A stretch of 50,564 bases of DNA from an uncultured Eubacteriales bacterium (GTDB lineage Bacteria; Bacillota; Clostridia; Lachnospirales; Lachnospiraceae). Both the position numbers and the translations under genes were made by a program. The first letter of the stretch is position 1, and the number at the start of each line of letters is the position of its first letter. The stretch spans positions 1 to 50,564 of the forward strand of contig CASFBR010000077.1 of the NCBI GenBank assembly GCA_949292795.1. Reading direction: 5' to 3'. The notes beneath the pieces were generated by a model, which was given only the letters and a program-made list of their open reading frames with translations, searched no databases and had not been told where the DNA came from. Below are positions 3,121-18,486 of the stretch, in pieces.

Positions 3121-5526
3121 ATGGATAAAGTAAAAATTTCAGTCCGGCGTCTTGTGGAGTTTATACTTGTGTCCGGAGATATTGATACCGGCTCGCAAAG
3201 CCTGCGGGATGCCACGGCGATGCAGGAGGGGAGTGCTGCCCACAGAAAGCTCCAGAAAGAGGCAGGGGCGTCGTATCGTGCCGAGGTATCTTTAAAAATG
3301 GATGTCCCGGTGGGCGATGATCTGATAATCGCTCTGGAAGGGAGAGCGGACGGGATCATTGAGGATTACCATATTCCGGAAAATGAAGGGGACAGCGGCT
3401 ATTTGTATACGATCGATGAAATCAAAGGCACTTACGGGAGCTTAAACCGTATGGATGCCCCGCAGACGGTCCATCTGGGCCAGGCGCTTTGTTATGCTTA
3501 CATGTATGCCTGCCAGGAGCAGCTTTCGTCCATTGGCGTACAGATTACTTATATTCACCTGGAATCCGGAAAGGTCCGCAGGTTTAATGAAAAATGGGAT
3601 TTTGATGATCTGAAGCGCTGGTTTATGGATGTTATGGAAAAATATGCCGTCTGGGTGCGCTGGGCACTTGACTGGAAAGAGCGCCGCAACCTGTCCATTG
3701 GACGTCAGGATTTCCCGTTTGAGTACAGGAGCGGACAGCGGCGGCTGATCGCCGGTGTTTATCAGACGCTTATCCAGGGGAAAAAGCTGTTTATCCAGGC
3801 GCCGACAGGCACAGGCAAGACGATTTCCACCGTGTTTCCGGCGGTGAAGGTGATGGGAGAGGGAAAAAGCGATAAGCTTTTTTATCTCACGGCTAAGACG
3901 ATCACCCGCACAGTGGCGGAGGAAACGTTTGATCTGCTGAGAACATGCGGGATGCTTTTTAAATCCATCACCCTTACGGCCCGGGAGAAATGCTGTGTGC
4001 TGGAGGAGCCCCGCTGTAATCCCCGGGAATGTATCCGTGCGAAGGGACATTATGACCGGGTCAATGAGGCAGTGTTTGACATGATTACCCATGAACATGC
4101 CATGACCCGCGAGGTGATCCATGATTATGCCGCCCGGCATCAGGTGTGCCCCTTTGAGATGCAGCTTGACGCGGCAGTGTGGCTGGATGGGGTGATCTGC
4201 GATTATAATTATGTATTTGATCCCTATGTCTATCTGAAACGGTTCTTTGGGGACAGCCGCGAAAATTATATTCTTCTGATCGATGAGGCGCACAACCTTG
4301 TGGAGCGTGCTCGGGATATGTACAGCGCGGCTTTAAGCATTTTCCAGTTCAAGGCGGTCCGCAGGCTTATAAAAGAAGAAGCGCCCAAAATAGCCGCCCG
4401 CATTGGAAAGTGCATGAAATATCTTCAGGCAGTCGCCGCGGAATGTCCCGATTGTGCCAAGACAAACAGCAGCGGCGGTCTGACACTGTATCTGACCCGG
4501 ATGATGTCGGAGATGGAGCTGTATCTGAAAAATAATGAAGATAAGGGCGCCGCACGTCTGGCACAAAAGGATGCTGTGCTGGAGCTCTACCTTGAGGCGC
4601 GCCGCTTTATTAACGCCTATGATGCGATGGATGAGGAGCGCTATATCGAGTATGGACAGACGCTTCCTGACGGCGATTTCATGCTCAAAATTTTTTGTGT
4701 TGATCCGTCAAAGGATTTGGGAAAACGGCTGGACCTCGGGCTCGGAGCCATATTTTTCTCCGCGACGCTGCTCCCGGTGCAGTATTATAAAAACCTTTTG
4801 AGCGTTTCGGCGCCTTCCGATTATGATATGTACGCGGATTCGCCATTTGATGAAAAAAAGCGGCTGCTGATGATCGCCGGTGATGTGAGCAGCAAATATA
4901 CCCGGAGAAATGAACAGGAATATGTGCGTATTTCCGATTATATCCGGGACATTGCCCGGGCGCGGAACGGCAATTATCTTGTATTTTTTCCGTCCTATGC
5001 CTATATGGAAAATGTTTTTGAGGTATTTTCGCAGCGTGAGCTTTTAAAGGCCGGAAATGGCTTTGAGGTACTTGTTCAGGAAAATTCCATGAGCGAGGAA
5101 GCCCGTCAGAAGTTTTTGGACGCCTTTGTGGCCTGCACGCATACGACAACACTTGGCTTTTGCGTGCTGGGCGGTATTTTTTCAGAGGGGATCGATCTGA
5201 AGGAGGACCGGCTGATCGGGGCGATTATTGTGGGCACCGGTCTGCCTCAGATCGGTGCGCAGCGGGAGCTTTTGCGGGAATTTTATGATAAAAAATGCGG
5301 TTTGGGCTTTGAATATGCCTATCTTTATCCGGGACTGAACAAGGTGCTCCAGGCCGGAGGCCGGGTGATCCGCACGGAAAATGACCGCGGAGTGATCGCC
5401 CTGCTGGATGAACGGTTCCATTACCGGCAGTACCGCAGCCTGTTTCCGAGAGAGTGGAACCCGTGCCGGAGTGTGACCCGGAATAATGTGGTAGATGTTG
5501 TAAATGAATTTTGGGAAAAACAGTAA
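3121..5526 (+). CDS. ATP-dependent DNA helicase, DinG/XPD type, with N-terminal PD-(D/E)XK-like nuclease domain
   Basis: The 801-residue protein has two parts. Residues about 1-190 look like a PD-(D/E)XK nuclease (EGRADG near 75-80, DEIK at 99-102, then a QALCYAYMY helix). The rest is a superfamily 2 iron-sulphur helicase: Walker A APTGTGKT at about 227-234, a cysteine set near 291-304 plus C343 that fits the XPD/DinG [4Fe-4S] pattern, and DEAH at about 388-391. The C-terminal part has the GIFSEGIDL and QAGGRVIR motifs of helicase domain 2. DNA repair or recombination in the cytoplasm is expected. The ribosome binding site is weak. It appears to be transcribed alone. Confidence 0.88.
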   Translation: MDKVKISVRRLVEFILVSGDIDTGSQSLRDATAMQEGSAAHRKLQKEAGASYRAEVSLKMDVPVGDDLIIALEGRADGIIEDYHIPENEGDSGYLYTIDEIKGTYGSLNRMDAPQTVHLGQALCYAYMYACQEQLSSIGVQITYIHLESGKVRRFNEKWDFDDLKRWFMDVMEKYAVWVRWALDWKERRNLSIGRQDFPFEYRSGQRRLIAGVYQTLIQGKKLFIQAPTGTGKTISTVFPAVKVMGEGKSDKLFYLTAKTITRTVAEETFDLLRTCGMLFKSITLTAREKCCVLEEPRCNPRECIRAKGHYDRVNEAVFDMITHEHAMTREVIHDYAARHQVCPFEMQLDAAVWLDGVICDYNYVFDPYVYLKRFFGDSRENYILLIDEAHNLVERARDMYSAALSIFQFKAVRRLIKEEAPKIAARIGKCMKYLQAVAAECPDCAKTNSSGGLTLYLTRMMSEMELYLKNNEDKGAARLAQKDAVLELYLEARRFINAYDAMDEERYIEYGQTLPDGDFMLKIFCVDPSKDLGKRLDLGLGAIFFSATLLPVQYYKNLLSVSAPSDYDMYADSPFDEKKRLLMIAGDVSSKYTRRNEQEYVRISDYIRDIARARNGNYLVFFPSYAYMENVFEVFSQRELLKAGNGFEVLVQENSMSEEARQKFLDAFVACTHTTTLGFCVLGGIFSEGIDLKEDRLIGAIIVGTGLPQIGAQRELLREFYDKKCGLGFEYAYLYPGLNKVLQAGGRVIRTENDRGVIALLDERFHYRQYRSLFPREWNPCRSVTRNNVVDVVNEFWEKQ

Positions 5527-11894: not shown

Positions 11895-11952
11895 TTCCAG
11901 GGGATACCTTTATGCCGTGAAAATCACGGCAATAACAGAGAAAGGATGTATT

Positions 11953-13410
11953 ATGAAGAGACAATTTGTGACGGATATAAATATGATCAAGTATGAGGTT
12001 TGCGTGGAGGTTGCAAAGCTGGCGTTTGCAGGTGAACTGGAAGCGCGCCGGGATGAGATTCCCTATACGATCATTCCGGGAAATACTCCAAAGTGGCGGT
12101 GCTGCGTTTATCGTGAGCGTGAGATTGTGCGCCAGAGAGTTAATCTTGCAGAAGGCCGTCCGGCTGTTGGTACAAAGACGAATAAAAATATTGTACAGGT
12201 GCTTCCGGCGGCCTGCGAGGGCTGTCCGATCAACCGCTTCAGCGTGACAAGCAGCTGTCAGATGTGTATGGCTAAAAAATGTATGGGCGCCTGCAATTTT
12301 GGCGCGATTACTTTTGAAGGCGGCCGGGCCCATATTGACCCGAAGAAGTGCAAAGAGTGCGGCAAGTGTGCCCAGGCCTGCCCGTACAATGCCATTGCTG
12401 ACCTGATGCGTCCATGTAAGCGTGCCTGCCCGGTGGATGCCATTACGATGGATGAGGATAATATCGTAGCTATTGATGAAGAAAAGTGCATTAACTGCGG
12501 TCAGTGTGTCATCGGATGTCCGTTTGGCGCGATCACAGATAAATCGTTTATGGTCGATGTCATTAAGCTGATCAACAGCGGCGCGAAGGTGTATGCCATG
12601 GTCGCTCCGGCTATTGCCGGACAGTTCGGCGGGGATGTGAATAACGGCCAGATACGCCAGGCAATCAAAGCGCTTGGCTTTGAGGACATGTACGAAGTGT
12701 CTCTTGGCGCTGATTTTGTTTCCAAAAATGAGGCACTGGAGCTGGAGGAGCATGTGAAGGAAGGAAAGAAGATGACAACCTCCTGCTGCCCGGCGTTTGT
12801 CAATATGATCAAAAAGCATTTTCCGCAGGTGCTTGATGCCATGTCCACAACGGTATCTCCGATGACCGCAACGGGACGTCTGATTAAAGCAATCGACCCG
12901 GAGGCTGTGTGTGTATTTATCGGGCCGTGTATTGCCAAAAAGGGCGAGGTGATCGACTCCATTACGATGGGCGGCGCCGATTATGCCATGACTTATGAGG
13001 AACTGGCAAGCATGTTTGACGCAAAAAATATCGACCCTGCGGATTTTGAAGGTGAAATGCAGCAGGGCAGTGTGTACGGTATGGAATTTTCGGTGTCCGG
13101 CGGCGTGACCAATGCCGTGCTTTCGACCTTTAAGGAGCGCAATGAGGCGATCGATGTGAAGGTTTGCAAGGCAAACGGCGCGCTGGAGTGTAAGAAAGCG
13201 CTGACAATGTTAAAGCTTGGCAAGCTTCCGGAGGATTTTATCGAAGGTATGGCCTGCGTCGGCGGCTGTGTCAATGGCCCGGCCATGATCAACAAGAGCC
13301 GTACTTATATGAAGGATAGAAATGAGCAGATCAAGAAAGCCGATGACCGCGGTGTTCTGGAAAACTGCGCAAAGTATGATGATCTGGAATTTAGCATGGT
13401 CCGCAAGTAA
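11953..13410 (+). CDS. [FeFe] hydrogenase, catalytic subunit (HydA2-like)
   Basis: The start at 11953 is preceded by AGAAAGGATG; the 36 bases before it in frame lack a site. The 485-residue enzyme has an N-terminal cysteine-rich region (CEGCP, CQMCMAKKCMGAC), two ferredoxin motifs (CKECGKCAQACP and CINCGQCVIGCP), and an H-cluster domain with all catalytic signatures: TTSCCPAF, GPCIAKKGE and ACVGGCVNG. It should interconvert H2 with protons and electrons in the cytoplasm. It closes the operon with the sensory hydrogenase, phosphatase and [2Fe-2S] protein, an arrangement similar to hydA2/hydS clusters of anaerobic Firmicutes. A strong terminator follows. Confidence 0.92.
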   Translation: MKRQFVTDINMIKYEVCVEVAKLAFAGELEARRDEIPYTIIPGNTPKWRCCVYREREIVRQRVNLAEGRPAVGTKTNKNIVQVLPAACEGCPINRFSVTSSCQMCMAKKCMGACNFGAITFEGGRAHIDPKKCKECGKCAQACPYNAIADLMRPCKRACPVDAITMDEDNIVAIDEEKCINCGQCVIGCPFGAITDKSFMVDVIKLINSGAKVYAMVAPAIAGQFGGDVNNGQIRQAIKALGFEDMYEVSLGADFVSKNEALELEEHVKEGKKMTTSCCPAFVNMIKKHFPQVLDAMSTTVSPMTATGRLIKAIDPEAVCVFIGPCIAKKGEVIDSITMGGADYAMTYEELASMFDAKNIDPADFEGEMQQGSVYGMEFSVSGGVTNAVLSTFKERNEAIDVKVCKANGALECKKALTMLKLGKLPEDFIEGMACVGGCVNGPAMINKSRTYMKDRNEQIKKADDRGVLENCAKYDDLEFSMVRK

Positions 13411-13431: not shown

Positions 13432-13461
13432 GGCGGGAAGTAAGGCTTCCCGCCCTTTTTT
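13432..13461 (+). terminator. Rho-independent terminator of the hydrogenase operon
   Basis: GGCGGGAAG (13432-13440), a 5-base loop and CTTCCCGCC (13446-13454) form a perfect 9-bp stem followed by six T residues (13456-13461). It lies 21 bases after the hydrogenase stop codon. Confidence 0.93.
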
Positions 13462-13601
13462 GCGCGATACGCCCGGAGGGCGGCCGCCGTGCTTGCACGA
13501 GCGGACATCCGACGGGCAACGGTCATCGAGTGGCAATGCCACGAGATGAGCGAGGTATCGCGATGATCGGGTAGGGGGAGGAAACTTCCCCTATCCGATC
13601 G
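13458..13601. repeat. 144-bp dispersed structured repeat, copy 1
   Basis: This stretch is about 96% identical to 17839-17982, with six differences, all A/G transitions. It can fold as a closed multibranch: CGCGATAC near its start pairs with GTATCGCG at 13555-13562. Inside are CGCCC-GGA-GGGCG, CGTGC-TT-GCACG and TCATC-GA-GTGGC-AAT-GCCAC-GA-GATGA. A final 16-bp hairpin (13565-13580 with 13585-13600) has a GAAA loop. It follows the T run of a terminator. No open frame explains it. It may be a repeat family that forms RNA structure or a small RNA. Confidence 0.8.
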
Positions 13602-14080: not shown

Positions 14081-16342
14081 ATGATAGACAAGATTCAAAA
14101 GCGCAATGGCGATGTGGTTGCATTTGATTCCATGAAGATCATGAATGCGATCGACCGGGCCAATAAAGCGGTAGAGGGGGAGACGATGACACCGACGGAT
14201 CTGCTTTTTCTGACAGAAAAGGTGTGCAGCCGTCTCAGTGACCGGGAGCTCAACAGCGTCGAACATATTCAGGACCTTGTGGAGGAGATACTGATCCGCT
14301 TCGGCTATGCAAAGACGGCAAAGGCCTATATTTTATACCGTGCAGATCATACAAAGATCAGAAATTCCGAGTTTGATCTGATGGATATTTACAAAAAGCT
14401 GACCTACTCCGATGCAAAGGATGAGGATATAAAGCGGGAAAATGCCAATATTGATGCCGATACCGCCATGGGAACAATGCTCAAGTACGGCTCTGAGGGC
14501 TCCAAGTATTTTATTGACAATTATGTGCTGCCAAAGGATATTGCGGCGGCCCATATGAACGGCGATATTCATATTCACGATATGGATTTTTATATGCTGA
14601 CGGAAACCTGCTGCCAGATTAACCTGCTCAAGCTGTTTGACGGCGGATTTTCCACCGGCCATGGCTACTTAAGAGAGCCCAACTCCATCCGCTCGTATGC
14701 CGCGCTGGCCTGCATTGCCATTCAGGCCAATCAAAACGAGATGCACGGCGGGCAGAGTATTCCGAACTTTGATTATGCCATGGCACAGGGCGTGGCCAAA
14801 ACCTACCGCAAGGAATATTTTAAGCATCTTAAAACGTATTTTCAGCTTAAGCTGGATATGGAAGAGGAGGAAGCCATCGAGCTTGTCAATGATCTGAAAG
14901 CGACGATGACGACCGAGATTTCCATGAGCAGCAAAGACGCCTGGGAAAAGGAGCTTTCAGGCTACGGTGTCGGCGGACGGCTGTGGGGCGATGATCTTGC
15001 CAGAGCCCACCGCTATGCGGCAGAGGCGGCGTATAAGACGACCGACCGGGAGACCTATCAGGCCATGGAAGCACTCGTACATAATCTTAATACGATGAAC
15101 TCCCGGGCCGGCGCACAGGTGCCGTTCAGCTCGATCAATTACGGAACCGATACATCGCCGGAGGGACGTATGGCTGTGCGCAATCTGCTGCTGGCAACAG
15201 AGGCCGGTCTTGGCGGAGGGGAGACGCCAATCTTCCCGGTGCAGATATTTAAGGTGAAGGAGGGCGTCAATTTTAACAAAGACGATCCAAACTACGATCT
15301 GTTTAAGCTGGCGATCAAGACAAGCGCTCAGAGATTGTTTCCGAATTTCAGCTTTATTGATGCGCCGTTTAATCTTCAGTATTACAGGGCGGGCGATTAT
15401 AATACAGAGGTGGCCTATATGGGCTGCCGGACCCGTGTTCTTGGCAATGTCCATGACCCGTCCAAAGCGGTGACCTGCGGCCGGGGCAATTTAAGCTTTA
15501 CGTCCATTAATCTCCCGAGGCTCGGGATTGAAGCCCGGGGCAATGTGGATCAGTTTTTTAAGCTGCTGGATGAACGCATCGATCTTGTCATCCGCCAGCT
15601 CCTTCACCGTTTTAAAATCCAGTGTACAAAGAAGGTACGCAATTACCCGTTCCTTATGGGACAGGGCATCTGGATTGATTCCGATACGCTGGATATTGAT
15701 GACAGCATTGCCGAGGTGCTCAAGCACGGTACGTTAAGTGTAGGCTTTATCGGACTGGCAGAGACGCTTAAGGCGCTTATTGGCAAGCATCACGGTGAAA
15801 GCGCAGAGGCTCAGGAGCTGGGGCTTAGGATCATCGGACATATGCGCGACCGCATGGATGAGGAATCGGCAAGGACCGGACTTAATTTTACATTGCTGGC
15901 AACGCCGGCAGAGGGCTTAAGCGGACGCTTTGTCGGTATCGACAAGAAGATTTATGGCATTATTGAAGGGGTTACGGACCGGGAGTACTATACAAACTCC
16001 TTCCATATCCCGGTATATTATCCGATCAAGGCATTTCAGAAAATCAGCCTTGAGGCGCCGTATCATGCGCTGACCAATGCCGGCCATATCAGCTATGTGG
16101 AGCTGGACGGCGATACCTGCAAAAACCTGGATGCCTTTGAGACGGTCATCCGCTATATGAAAGAGCAGGGGATCGGCTATGGTTCCATTAATCATCCGGT
16201 AGACCGCGATCCGGTATGCGGCTATACCGGCGTCATCGGCGAGGTCTGCCCGCGCTGCGGCCGCCGGGAGGGCGAGAGCGTCAGCATAGAAAAGCTGCGC
16301 GAGCTGCGCAAAAAATACCCGAATGTCCCTTATTATGGATAA
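14081..16342 (+). CDS. nrdD: Anaerobic ribonucleoside-triphosphate reductase, large chain lacking the glycyl-radical segment
   Basis: The 753-residue protein begins with an ATP-cone (about 1-95, IQKRNGDVVAFDSMKI) for allosteric control, followed by the class III reductase barrel (SINYGTDTSPEGRM, GLGGGETPIFPVQ, and MGCRTRVLGN with C449). It ends with a zinc-site-like PVCGYTG (C713) and CPRCGR (C723, C726). The usual RVxGYL glycyl-radical motif is absent: after CPRCGR the protein ends in a different tail, KKYPNVPYYG. That motif is in a separate 51-residue gene 31 bases downstream. The enzyme would reduce ribonucleotides to deoxyribonucleotides without oxygen only if both pieces assemble. CGGGAGG precedes the ATG. 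Confidence 0.93.
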   Translation: MIDKIQKRNGDVVAFDSMKIMNAIDRANKAVEGETMTPTDLLFLTEKVCSRLSDRELNSVEHIQDLVEEILIRFGYAKTAKAYILYRADHTKIRNSEFDLMDIYKKLTYSDAKDEDIKRENANIDADTAMGTMLKYGSEGSKYFIDNYVLPKDIAAAHMNGDIHIHDMDFYMLTETCCQINLLKLFDGGFSTGHGYLREPNSIRSYAALACIAIQANQNEMHGGQSIPNFDYAMAQGVAKTYRKEYFKHLKTYFQLKLDMEEEEAIELVNDLKATMTTEISMSSKDAWEKELSGYGVGGRLWGDDLARAHRYAAEAAYKTTDRETYQAMEALVHNLNTMNSRAGAQVPFSSINYGTDTSPEGRMAVRNLLLATEAGLGGGETPIFPVQIFKVKEGVNFNKDDPNYDLFKLAIKTSAQRLFPNFSFIDAPFNLQYYRAGDYNTEVAYMGCRTRVLGNVHDPSKAVTCGRGNLSFTSINLPRLGIEARGNVDQFFKLLDERIDLVIRQLLHRFKIQCTKKVRNYPFLMGQGIWIDSDTLDIDDSIAEVLKHGTLSVGFIGLAETLKALIGKHHGESAEAQELGLRIIGHMRDRMDEESARTGLNFTLLATPAEGLSGRFVGIDKKIYGIIEGVTDREYYTNSFHIPVYYPIKAFQKISLEAPYHALTNAGHISYVELDGDTCKNLDAFETVIRYMKEQGIGYGSINHPVDRDPVCGYTGVIGEVCPRCGRREGESVSIEKLRELRKKYPNVPYYG

Positions 16343-16373
16343 ATCACAAACAAATCAGTCAGGAGGAATCATT

Positions 16374-16529
16374 ATGAATCAGAAAGCAGTTACGAGAGAA
16401 GAAGCTATTGGAGAAAATGTAGGCTTTGACCGTATTCGCCGGATCACCGGATACCTTGTAGGTACAACCGAGCGTTTTAATAATGCCAAAAGAGCTGAGG
16501 AGAAGGATCGTGTAAAGCATGGAATCTAA
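16374..16529 (+). CDS. Stand-alone glycyl-radical domain of anaerobic ribonucleotide reductase
   Basis: The 51-residue protein has its own strong ribosome binding site (AGGAGG at 16361-16366, 7 bases before ATG). RIRRITGYLVGT is the class III reductase glycyl-radical motif, with G26 the expected radical site, followed by RFNNAKRAEEKDRVKHG, the normal C-terminal end of NrdD. It is therefore the detached last segment of NrdD. It lies between nrdD and nrdG and overlaps nrdG by 11 bases, so all three are probably co-translated. It is not a frameshift, because nrdD ends in its own distinct tail and this gene has its own start. Similar separate pieces may exist in other Clostridia; I could not check. 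Confidence 0.9.
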   Translation: MNQKAVTREEAIGENVGFDRIRRITGYLVGTTERFNNAKRAEEKDRVKHGI

Positions 16530-17025
16530 GCTGAAGGTCAGCGGCATTATCGAGGAATCCATTGTGGACGGTCCGGGACTGAGATTTACTGTCTTTACCC
16601 AGGGCTGTCCGCATCATTGTCCGGGCTGCCACAATCCCCAGACCCACGATTTTGAAGGCGGGAAATGGATGGAGCTGGATGAGATCATGGCGATGTTTGA
16701 CGAGGACCCGCTGCTGGCGGGCATGACATTTTCCGGCGGCGAGCCGTTTTGCCAGCCGGCGCCCCTGGCAGAGCTTGCCCGGCAGGTACGGGCCCGGGGA
16801 AAAAATATTGTCGCTTATTCCGGTTATACGTTTGAACAGCTGTCTGAGATGGCTGCCCATAATCCCGATATTGAGGCGCTTTTGTCCATGTGTGACCTGC
16901 TCATCGACGGCCCTTATGTGGAAGCGCGCCGTGACCTCGATCTGCTTTTCCGCGGAAGCACAAATCAGAGAATCCTTGATCTTAAAAATTATCCGGAGGT
17001 TAAAGATGTCAGCGATCAGCTGTAA
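16519..17025 (+). CDS. nrdG: Anaerobic ribonucleotide reductase activating enzyme (radical SAM)
   Basis: The 168-residue protein has the radical-SAM cluster motif QGCPHHCPGCHN (C-x3-C-x2-C), then TFSGGEPFCQP and DLLIDGPYVEARRD, the usual NrdG signatures and length. It uses S-adenosylmethionine and an iron-sulphur cluster to place the radical on the glycine of the reductase. Here the target glycine is on the separate 51-residue protein. The gene starts inside that gene, 11 bases before its stop. No clear terminator follows. Confidence 0.95.
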   Translation: MESKLKVSGIIEESIVDGPGLRFTVFTQGCPHHCPGCHNPQTHDFEGGKWMELDEIMAMFDEDPLLAGMTFSGGEPFCQPAPLAELARQVRARGKNIVAYSGYTFEQLSEMAAHNPDIEALLSMCDLLIDGPYVEARRDLDLLFRGSTNQRILDLKNYPEVKDVSDQL

Positions 17026-17215: not shown

Positions 17216-17758
17216 ATGAAAAAGTTTGTATGTACCGTATGCGGTTATGTTCACGAAGGAGACAGCGCACCAGCAGAATGTCCGATCTGCCATGCACCGG
17301 CTGAGAAGTTTAAAGAGCAGACCGGCGACAGAGAGTGGGCTGCCGCGCATGTTGTAGGCGTTGCACAGGGCGTCAGCGAAGATATTCTTAAAGACCTGAG
17401 AGCAAATTTTGAAGGCGAGTGCTCCGAAGTTGGTATGTATCTTGCTATGGCAAGAGTTGCTCACAGAGAAGGCTATCCTGAGATCGGTCTTTACTATGAG
17501 AAGGCTGCCTGGGAAGAGGCTGAGCATGCTGCAAAGTTTGCTGAGTTACTCGGTGAAGTTGTAACAGACAGCACCAAGAAGAACCTTGAGATGCGTGTGG
17601 ATGCAGAAAACGGCGCAACCGCCGGCAAGACTGATCTTGCAAAGCGTGCAAAGGCAGCAAATCTTGACGCAATCCATGACACTGTACATGAGATGGCAAG
17701 AGACGAGGCTCGTCATGGCAAGGCATTTGAAGGTCTGTTAAAGAGATACTTCGGCTAA
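17216..17758 (+). CDS. Reverse rubrerythrin (N-terminal rubredoxin domain, diiron ferritin-like domain)
   Basis: The 180-residue protein opens with a rubredoxin site (CTVCGYVH and CPICHAP, about 5-27) and continues with a ferritin-like four-helix domain holding diiron ligands ([33 protein letters not shown]). The rubredoxin part is N-terminal, opposite to classic rubrerythrin, as in the hydrogen-peroxide- and oxygen-induced reverse rubrerythrins of clostridia. It should reduce peroxide to water in the cytoplasm. AGGAGAG precedes the ATG. Codons are strongly biased (GAG, GCA, CTT), in keeping with high expression. It appears monocistronic, with its own terminator. Confidence 0.93.
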
Positions 17759-17779: not shown

Positions 17780-17842
17780 GCACACCGCATGGTGTGCGGT
17801 CATAAGGGGGCACTGGGTCGGGACCGACTCAGTGCCCATTTT
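17780..17842 (+). terminator. Rubrerythrin terminator region
   Basis: GCACACC-GCAT-GGTGTGC (17780-17797) is a first hairpin. The second, stronger one pairs 17808-17821 with 17824-17837 (GGGCACTGGGTCGG and CCGACTCAGTGCCC, one wobble) and runs into ATTTTG. It lies just before copy 2 of the structured repeat, as the hydrogenase terminator lies before copy 1. Confidence 0.75.
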
Positions 17843-17982
17843 GCGCGATACGCCCGGAGGGCGGCCGCCGTGCTTGCACGGGCGGACATCCGACGGGCAA
17901 CGGTCATCGAGTGGCAGTGCCGCGAGATGAGCGAGGTATCGCGATGATCGGGTAGGGGAAGAAAGCTTCCCCTATCCGATCG
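17839..17982. repeat. 144-bp dispersed structured repeat, copy 2
   Basis: Same length and fold as 13458-13601. The six base differences from copy 1 are all A/G transitions and those in stems keep pairing: GTGGC-AGT-GCCGC has a U-G pair where copy 1 has U-A, and the final hairpin changes a G-U to an A-U pair. The last stem (17946-17961 with 17966-17981) has an AAAG loop. It again lies directly after a terminator and before the next promoter. Confidence 0.8.
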
Positions 17983-18050: not shown

Positions 18051-18075
18051 TTATTAACATCAGGGAGGTGTGCCA

Positions 18076-18486
18076 ATGAAAACCGTAAAATATAGCCGCC
18101 AGAGAGAAGCAATCAAAAATTACCTGATGTCCACAAAAGAACATCCCACTGCGGAGATGGTTTACGAAGCCATTCGCGAGGTTTGCCCCAATATCAGTCT
18201 GGGAACGGTATACCGGAACCTGACCTTCCTTGTGGAGCACGGGGAAATCATACGCCTTCGCTGCGGAGAGGACAGCGACCGCTTTGACGGAAATACAACG
18301 CGGCATTATCATTTTATCTGCCGGACATGCGGCTGTGTCAAAGACCTTGTGATGCTGCCCATCGATCATATCGATGCCATTGCCGGCGAACATTTTGATG
18401 GAAATATTGAGGGGCATTATGCGTATTTTTACGGAACATGCGCTCAGTGTGCAGCAAAAGAGACACAGACTGAAGAAGCCGGATGA
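18076..18486 (+). CDS. perR: Fur-family peroxide-responsive regulator (PerR type)
   Basis: The ATG at 18076 lies 7 bases after GGGAGG; an in-frame GTG at 18070 is too close to that site. The 136-residue protein has the Fur winged helix (HPTAEMVYEAIRE, LGTVYRNLTFLVEHGEI), the regulatory site RFDGNTTRHYHF, and two CxxC zinc pairs (CRTCG, CAQC). The residue after the first pair is aspartate (VKDL), as in PerR, where Fur has glutamate. It should sense peroxide by metal-catalysed oxidation. Placement 320 bp after rubrerythrin supports PerR over Fur or Zur, though metal specificity is not proven. A 36-bp tandem repeat begins in its stop region. Confidence 0.85.
   Translation: MKTVKYSRQREAIKNYLMSTKEHPTAEMVYEAIREVCPNISLGTVYRNLTFLVEHGEIIRLRCGEDSDRFDGNTTRHYHFICRTCGCVKDLVMLPIDHIDAIAGEHFDGNIEGHYAYFYGTCAQCAAKETQTEEAG

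Follow-up and report, generated by a model that had tools for sequence, protein, structure and literature searches.

A probable three-polypeptide class III ribonucleotide reductase whose glycyl-radical loop is encoded as a separate 51-residue protein

The window analysed here is the 50,564-nt contig CASFBR010000077.1 of an uncultured Eubacteriales bacterium (Lachnospiraceae; assembly GCA_949292795.1), a draft genome in 171 contigs. It carries the genes of a class III ribonucleotide reductase (RNR), which the earlier note had described as split into a large chain and a 51-residue glycyl-radical protein, and our profile searches bear this out (Table 1). The nrdD frame terminates in ...CPRCGRREGESVSIEKLRELRKKYPNVPYYG, with its stop 25 residues past CPRCGR, and is without the radical motif. 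The small gene follows after a gap of 31 nt in frame +1 relative to nrdD, with its own AGGAGG, and the open frames of the two genes share 50 nt. The radical loop RRITGYLVG lies on the 51-aa protein, whose gene overlaps nrdG, as the earlier note had it; the Gly26 codon is at 16449-16451, and the overlap amounts to 11 nt. The nrdG product matches the NCBIfam model TIGR02491 for NrdG with 140.5 bits against a cut-off of 126.1. Further downstream, Pfam matches identify a rubrerythrin gene (17216-17758) and a gene for a Fur-family regulator (18070-18486), and a 144-nt direct repeat, 96% identical between its copies (13458-13601 and 17839-17982), brackets the nrd and rubrerythrin genes. Upstream of them, an ORF at 11917-13410 has many ferredoxin-like cysteine motifs and, judged by eye, resembles an iron-only hydrogenase.

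Table 1. Features of the nrd locus, in positions of the window
Feature	Position	Strand	Basis
nrdD, large chain, 753 aa	14081..16342	+	Pfam, NCBIfam, P. copri alignment, AlphaFold2 model
25-residue tail of the large chain past CPRCGR	16265..16339	+	sequence comparison, dN/dS
AGGAGG, ribosome-binding site for the small gene	16361..16366	+	sequence; 6/6 match
small glycyl-radical gene, 51 aa, own ATG	16374..16529	+	Pfam, NCBIfam, P. copri alignment, dN/dS
nrdG, radical-SAM activase	16519..17025	+	TIGR02491

Between them, the two chains account for nearly the whole of the Pfam NRDD profile: of its 562 positions, 1-531 are matched by the large chain and 533-562 by the small protein (E 2.4e-8), and NCBIfam gives the same partition. 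In the large chain, the NRDD match (PF13597, E 7.6e-189) is preceded by an ATP-cone (PF03477, residues 4-91, E 3.4e-17). Its finger-loop MGC (Cys449) is invariant in 40 of 40 split large chains aligned, as are Cys713, Cys723 and Cys726 of the zinc-site region, the fourth place of which, position 710, is occupied by Asp in at least 90% of the rows and by Cys in L070 and L234. As the profile match ends at 531, the large chain is without a glycyl-radical loop and the radical glycine is not on the same chain. In the alignment with P. copri NrdD (PDB 8P23), residues 5-247 and 278-706 are matched by the large chain, in two stretches, and 707-738 by the small protein. Position 26 of the latter falls on residue 715 of the 8P23 chain, which, with four residues subtracted to count from the start methionine, would be Gly711 of the paper. 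An AlphaFold2 model of the large chain (mean pLDDT 82) has P. copri NrdD as its top Foldseek matches and places a helix in the tail (736-745) with moderate confidence. For the small protein, NRDD was the sole Pfam match at E up to 1; a match to PF01228 (Gly_radical) was absent, which rules it out as a member of the GrcA family of pyruvate formate-lyase (PFL) type. In PHROGs, matches were obtained to two NrdD families (best E for the window protein 1e-6), with a few further ones at E >0.05.

The tail that follows the zinc-site region of the large chain had been called unrelated in the earlier note, a label that we do not uphold, as the tail is conserved in split forms. Pooled over 13 split-locus pairs, dN/dS came to 0.053 across 9728 codons of the core, 0.052 across the 309 codons of the tail that follows CGR and 0.086 across 657 codons of the small protein; several dS values were saturated, which makes these ratios approximate. 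Both chains and the tail are thus under strong purifying selection, and the small chain changes somewhat faster than the core. A tail motif, GExVSxEKLxELRKKYPxVP, is common to the Lachnospiraceae and Oscillospiraceae rows, and the Bacilli rows have other short conserved tails. Given its low dN/dS and the recurrence of this motif, the tail is not filler.

The split layout is not peculiar to the window genome. Relatives of the small protein were found in at least 555 stretches of genome_contigs, and classification of the best 80 of these loci by one rule returned 62 adjacent splits, 10 fused genes, 6 orphans and 2 cases at contig ends; 62 of 80 is no measure of prevalence, the loci having been picked by similarity to the small protein. 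When this genomic set was pooled with 80 viral loci from IMG/VR, 64 adjacent splits were available for comparison. In these, relative to the large frame, the small one is 0 in 26 cases, +1 in 22 and +2 in 16, and it opens only past the large stop in 44. Measured from the stop to whichever ATG has the best-scoring Shine-Dalgarno match, the gap ranges from 5 to 763 nt (median 24), and that match reaches at least 5/6 in 57 of the 64. One of them, viral L201, has a different break, within the barrel. Recurrence of the adjacent layout, variation of the frames and the presence of Shine-Dalgarno matches together argue for two genes and against one interrupted frame. In G018, the search table lists one 818-aa frame for both parts, which the DNA separates by TAG and TAA.

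Sampling of genomes gave a complementary view. At the family level, the small protein was matched in 14 of 299 genomes, all 14 of which had a large chain ending at NRDD 530-531 plus the small chain; since NRDD was present in 118 of the 120 genomes of this family with a completeness of 90% or more, most NrdD proteins of the family are not of the split kind. In the phylum sample, the loop profile was matched in 123 of 299 genomes, 26 of them (counted from the listing) with the loop in a frame of <250 aa. Seventeen of these 26 were examined: 11 had a loop-less NRDD chain, including G592 with a second NRDD chain that reaches position 560, and 6 had a complete chain together with a further loop protein. 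A tree was built from 67 NrdD chains, thinned from 104 and trimmed before the zinc motif; on it, the label split or fused required 7 changes, at least 3 of them forced by well-supported branches; this tree, from a short search and with long branches, does not allow the direction of change to be inferred, leaves out the differently broken L201 and does not label L241 and L243 as fused. Outside the tree, L265 (G310) presents a split in a shorter NrdD (686 aa, zinc region NFPIDFCKVCGY) with a loop ORF, RRVTGYF, directly 5' of nrdG, and is possibly of separate origin. In L268 (G369; 3340-3363), nrdD ends ...FERIHRITE with a stop in place of the radical glycine, and a loop gene lies on another contig. 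This hints at a route by which such enzymes may arise, as if a spare part took over from a lost glycine; G369 also has PF02867 matches.

The genome from which the window derives encodes a second, full-length NrdD with its own NrdG on contig C164 (loop RRTCGYLG), which is 29% identical to the window NrdD, and a search with PF02867 found no class I/II RNR in this genome. Given the complete NrdD-NrdG pair, the split enzyme need not be essential in this organism. The earlier note had named a second complete nrdD, with the present one inactive, as grounds for giving up its reading; the first half of this is realised, while the window copy gives no sign of inactivity. Complete NrdD proteins are also present in the congener G067 and in G305, to which the near relative L019 belongs. 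The situation is different in part of the 25 split genomes (14 from the family and 11 from the phylum sample). Searches with two Pfam models, in mostly draft genomes, found neither a further NRDD match nor a class I/II (PF02867) match in 11 of them (G013, G030, G183, G484, G508, G529, G549, G531, G333, G487 and G310), ten of which are 94-99% complete and one, G030, 86%. Each of the remaining 14 has at least one of the two, a further NRDD chain or a PF02867 match. Among the 11, G531 and G487 are single-contig assemblies. In the former the order is nrdD, loop gene, nrdG, and in the latter the sole NRDD chain found, ending KEFGTMTVPRMKD, lies ~430 kb from the sole loop gene found. In G333, the loop gene overlaps nrdG and nrdD is on a different contig. 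In G310, the loop match falls below the Pfam cut-off, and the DNA displays the short RRVTGYF ORF just 5' of nrdG. As the sole RNR detected in these genomes is without the loop, the glycine must act in trans there, barring an RNR that both profiles missed or, for the drafts, one in sequence absent from the assembly. The proposition of the earlier note that the radical glycine has to act from a second polypeptide is accordingly well supported at the level of sequence by the wide occurrence of the split, the conservation of both chains and the layout of G487.

Several other explanations have to be weighed. A single nrdD broken by a frameshift or stop, whether by sequencing error or as a pseudogene, might be suspected in a fragmented draft genome that holds a complete second copy. 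However, each gene has its own start and the small one its own Shine-Dalgarno sequence, adjacent splits recur in 62 of the best 80 of at least 555 loci, all three frame relations are represented among the 64, selection is purifying on both chains and the tail, and the genes lie apart in G487 and G333. Cross-genome conservation rules this explanation out, and its probability is next to nil. Programmed frameshifting or read-through, which would produce a fused protein from two frames, could draw on the 50 nt that the open frames share in the window, yet most small frames open past the large stop (44/64), the frame relations vary (26/22/16) and the genes do not adjoin in G487 and G333. With variable frames, late-opening small frames and separated genes, both processes are ruled out as well, and we grant them only a minute chance.

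The two remaining alternatives concern the part that the split enzyme plays. Conceivably, the complete NrdD of C164 is the working enzyme and the split one a minor paralogue with another role, as the intact C164 NrdD-NrdG and the complete enzymes of G067 and G305 might suggest. Retention of the MGC and zinc cysteines, a dN/dS of ~0.05 in split large chains and the status of the split form as sole RNR found in 11 of 25 genomes render this unlikely. Even less probable is that the small protein is a mere spare for another NrdD and that the large chain next to it does not depend on it as a subunit: orphan copies do exist in genomes with a complete NrdD elsewhere, but the C164 enzyme, the one further NrdD detected in this genome, belongs to another type (RRTCGYLG, 29% identity), and a Gly loop is entirely missing from the neighbouring large chain.

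The locus thus very probably encodes a three-polypeptide class III RNR, consisting of the large NrdD, a dissociable 51-residue glycyl-radical subunit and the NrdG activase. The partition, its conservation, the operon layout and the genomes with the split form as sole detected RNR can be read from the sequences themselves; that the chains form a complex, that the radical resides on Gly26 and that the enzyme turns over is what we infer. In class III enzymes, NrdG removes a hydrogen from glycine, and the glycyl radical gives rise to a thiyl radical on the finger-loop cysteine, with formate as the reductant in the methionine-containing MGCR type. Transferred to the split form, the large chain would contribute the ATP-cone, the allosteric sites, the active-site cysteines and the zinc-site region, the Gly loop of the 51-residue subunit would insert into the barrel of the large chain, and NrdG would generate the radical on Gly26, from where it would pass to Cys449 on the finger loop and back again during catalysis. 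Evolutionarily, a cut of the chain between zinc site and loop would have turned a mobile element into a subunit. Glycyl-radical enzymes suffer backbone cleavage at the radical glycine when exposed to oxygen. Since oxygen thus cleaves these proteins at the very residue that the small subunit carries, the latter may be exchangeable: the cheap small subunit would be swapped and the 85-kDa chain retained, and stand-alone loop copies in bacteria and phages might serve as spare parts, a replacement and spare-part role for which the support is circumstantial. In P. copri NrdD, Gly711 is the radical glycine, proximal to Cys416, and the glycyl-radical domain is mobile: it takes up an ordered state in the active monomer alone and becomes disordered in the presence of dATP (PMC11226230). 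A mobile loop domain is thus already normal in a one-chain NrdD. In the case of PFL, activation of YfiD depends on the cleaved enzyme (PMC8683613).

Loop proteins also occur without an adjoining large chain. A complete NrdD together with an extra loop protein was found in 12 genomes, namely G299-G301 (among 8 genomes tested) and G352, G514, G467, G491, G337, G579, G720, G709 and G619 (among 20); the extra match was below the Pfam cut-off in G337, G579 and G619, and the ORFs were viewed directly for G299-G301, G709, G514, G720 and G491. Besides, G302-G304 combine the split enzyme with additional loop genes, and the loci through which they were reached, L080, L074 and L092, sit amid phage-like genes (by eye). 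The 80 IMG/VR loci comprised 44 orphans, 26 fused genes, 2 adjacent splits, 2 loci in which NRDD lay apart from the small gene, 5 cases at ends and 1 without the motif. Stand-alone NrdD glycyl-radical proteins on phage or prophage contigs include L155, L168 and L184 as well as L074, L080 and L092. In the Eggerthella phage EL753P1 (L234, 1700-5161), a loop-less NrdD has an insert after the finger-loop MGC that looks intein-like by eye, and the loop gene close by is spread over two frames that overlap. Orphans come in two forms, short proteins and proteins of ~85-100 aa with an N-terminal beta-alpha-beta-beta domain (e.g. L072:3851-4111, L168, L184 and L204). In predicted folds of the longer form, the N-terminal domain reached pLDDT 76-84 (ten-residue blocks) and the radical part <60, and a comparison with the PDB returned no significant match (best E 0.43).

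Neighbouring genes were tested with Pfam at four loci, the window with its rubrerythrin and Fur-family genes among them. One orphan gene lies between genes for rubrerythrin and a cNMP-binding regulator, another between genes for MsrA-MsrB and a cNMP-binding regulator, and in viral L154 the loop gene adjoins glycosyl hydrolase 108, with a large-chain gene also in the locus. Among the neighbours at these four loci, rubrerythrin, MsrA-MsrB and the Fur-family gene are what would be expected for a role in oxygen damage, while inspection by eye of the further orphan loci L061, L249, L276, L278, L280 and L281 revealed no oxidative-stress neighbour. The occurrence of orphans beside complete NrdD and on viral contigs is as expected of a GrcA-like spare part. 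We lean towards the view that the NrdD glycyl-radical loop is a free, exchangeable module across anaerobes: an obligatory subunit in many lineages, a GrcA-like spare beside complete NrdD in others and, as phage or prophage copies, a means of keeping or restarting host dNTP supply after oxygen damage. If true, a glycyl-radical enzyme other than PFL would for the first time be seen to have a spare-part system.

The available text of PMC8683613 names YfiD and Y06I as the only validated spare parts and holds that such parts are possible for further glycyl-radical enzymes. A split of the present kind is absent from the available portions of two papers on RNR phylogeny and extensions (PMC9531940, PMC9669993) and of a phage survey (PMC3653736); the RNR phylogeny dropped sequences of <400 residues, which would hide the small chain. 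Likewise, a literature search with subscription journals mostly outside its scope retrieved neither a split NrdD of this kind nor an NrdD spare part. The locus and its relatives offer a concrete spare-part candidate for an essential enzyme of DNA synthesis, along with natural experiments in the shape of obligatory split forms, complete enzymes with a spare, and phage-carried copies. The small radical carrier might also prove handy for studying how the radical is transferred in class III RNR by EPR, labelling and mutagenesis.

In comparison with known systems, the closest structural reference is P. copri NrdD (8P23), which shares the ATP-cone, barrel, MGC, zinc-site region, RITGYLVGT loop and NrdG and to which the large and small chains of the window align end to end; in P. 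copri, however, loop and barrel are in one chain, whereas in the window the loop and C-terminal tail make up the distinct 51-aa protein, and the large chain ends in a conserved tail of its own. The class II RNR of Pseudomonas aeruginosa is likewise encoded as two polypeptides, yet it is B12-dependent and without a glycyl radical, and its split is not known to be one of a radical carrier. Interrupted phage nrdD genes are also read as more than one ORF, mainly owing to introns, inteins and homing endonucleases, with one interruption of unknown cause in phiAS4 (PMC3653736), while the break in the window coincides with a domain boundary, and its conservation extends across bacteria. With GrcA/YfiD and phage T4 Y06I, as described in the available text of PMC8683613, the system has in common that a small autonomous glycyl-radical protein complements a large chain without a working radical glycine, and that phage-borne versions exist. 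The analogy to GrcA/YfiD drawn in the earlier note is apt in mechanism, and the orphan copies add support to it, but the small protein lacks PF01228 and consists of the NrdD loop. Besides, the window genome has no complete repair partner of the same type, the C164 NrdD being of another type, whereas the orphans in 12 other genomes do coexist with a complete NrdD. Since the large chain of the window is without the glycine by gene design, the small part should, unlike GrcA, be obligatory; it is the orphan loop copies that come closer to GrcA than the small protein of the window does.
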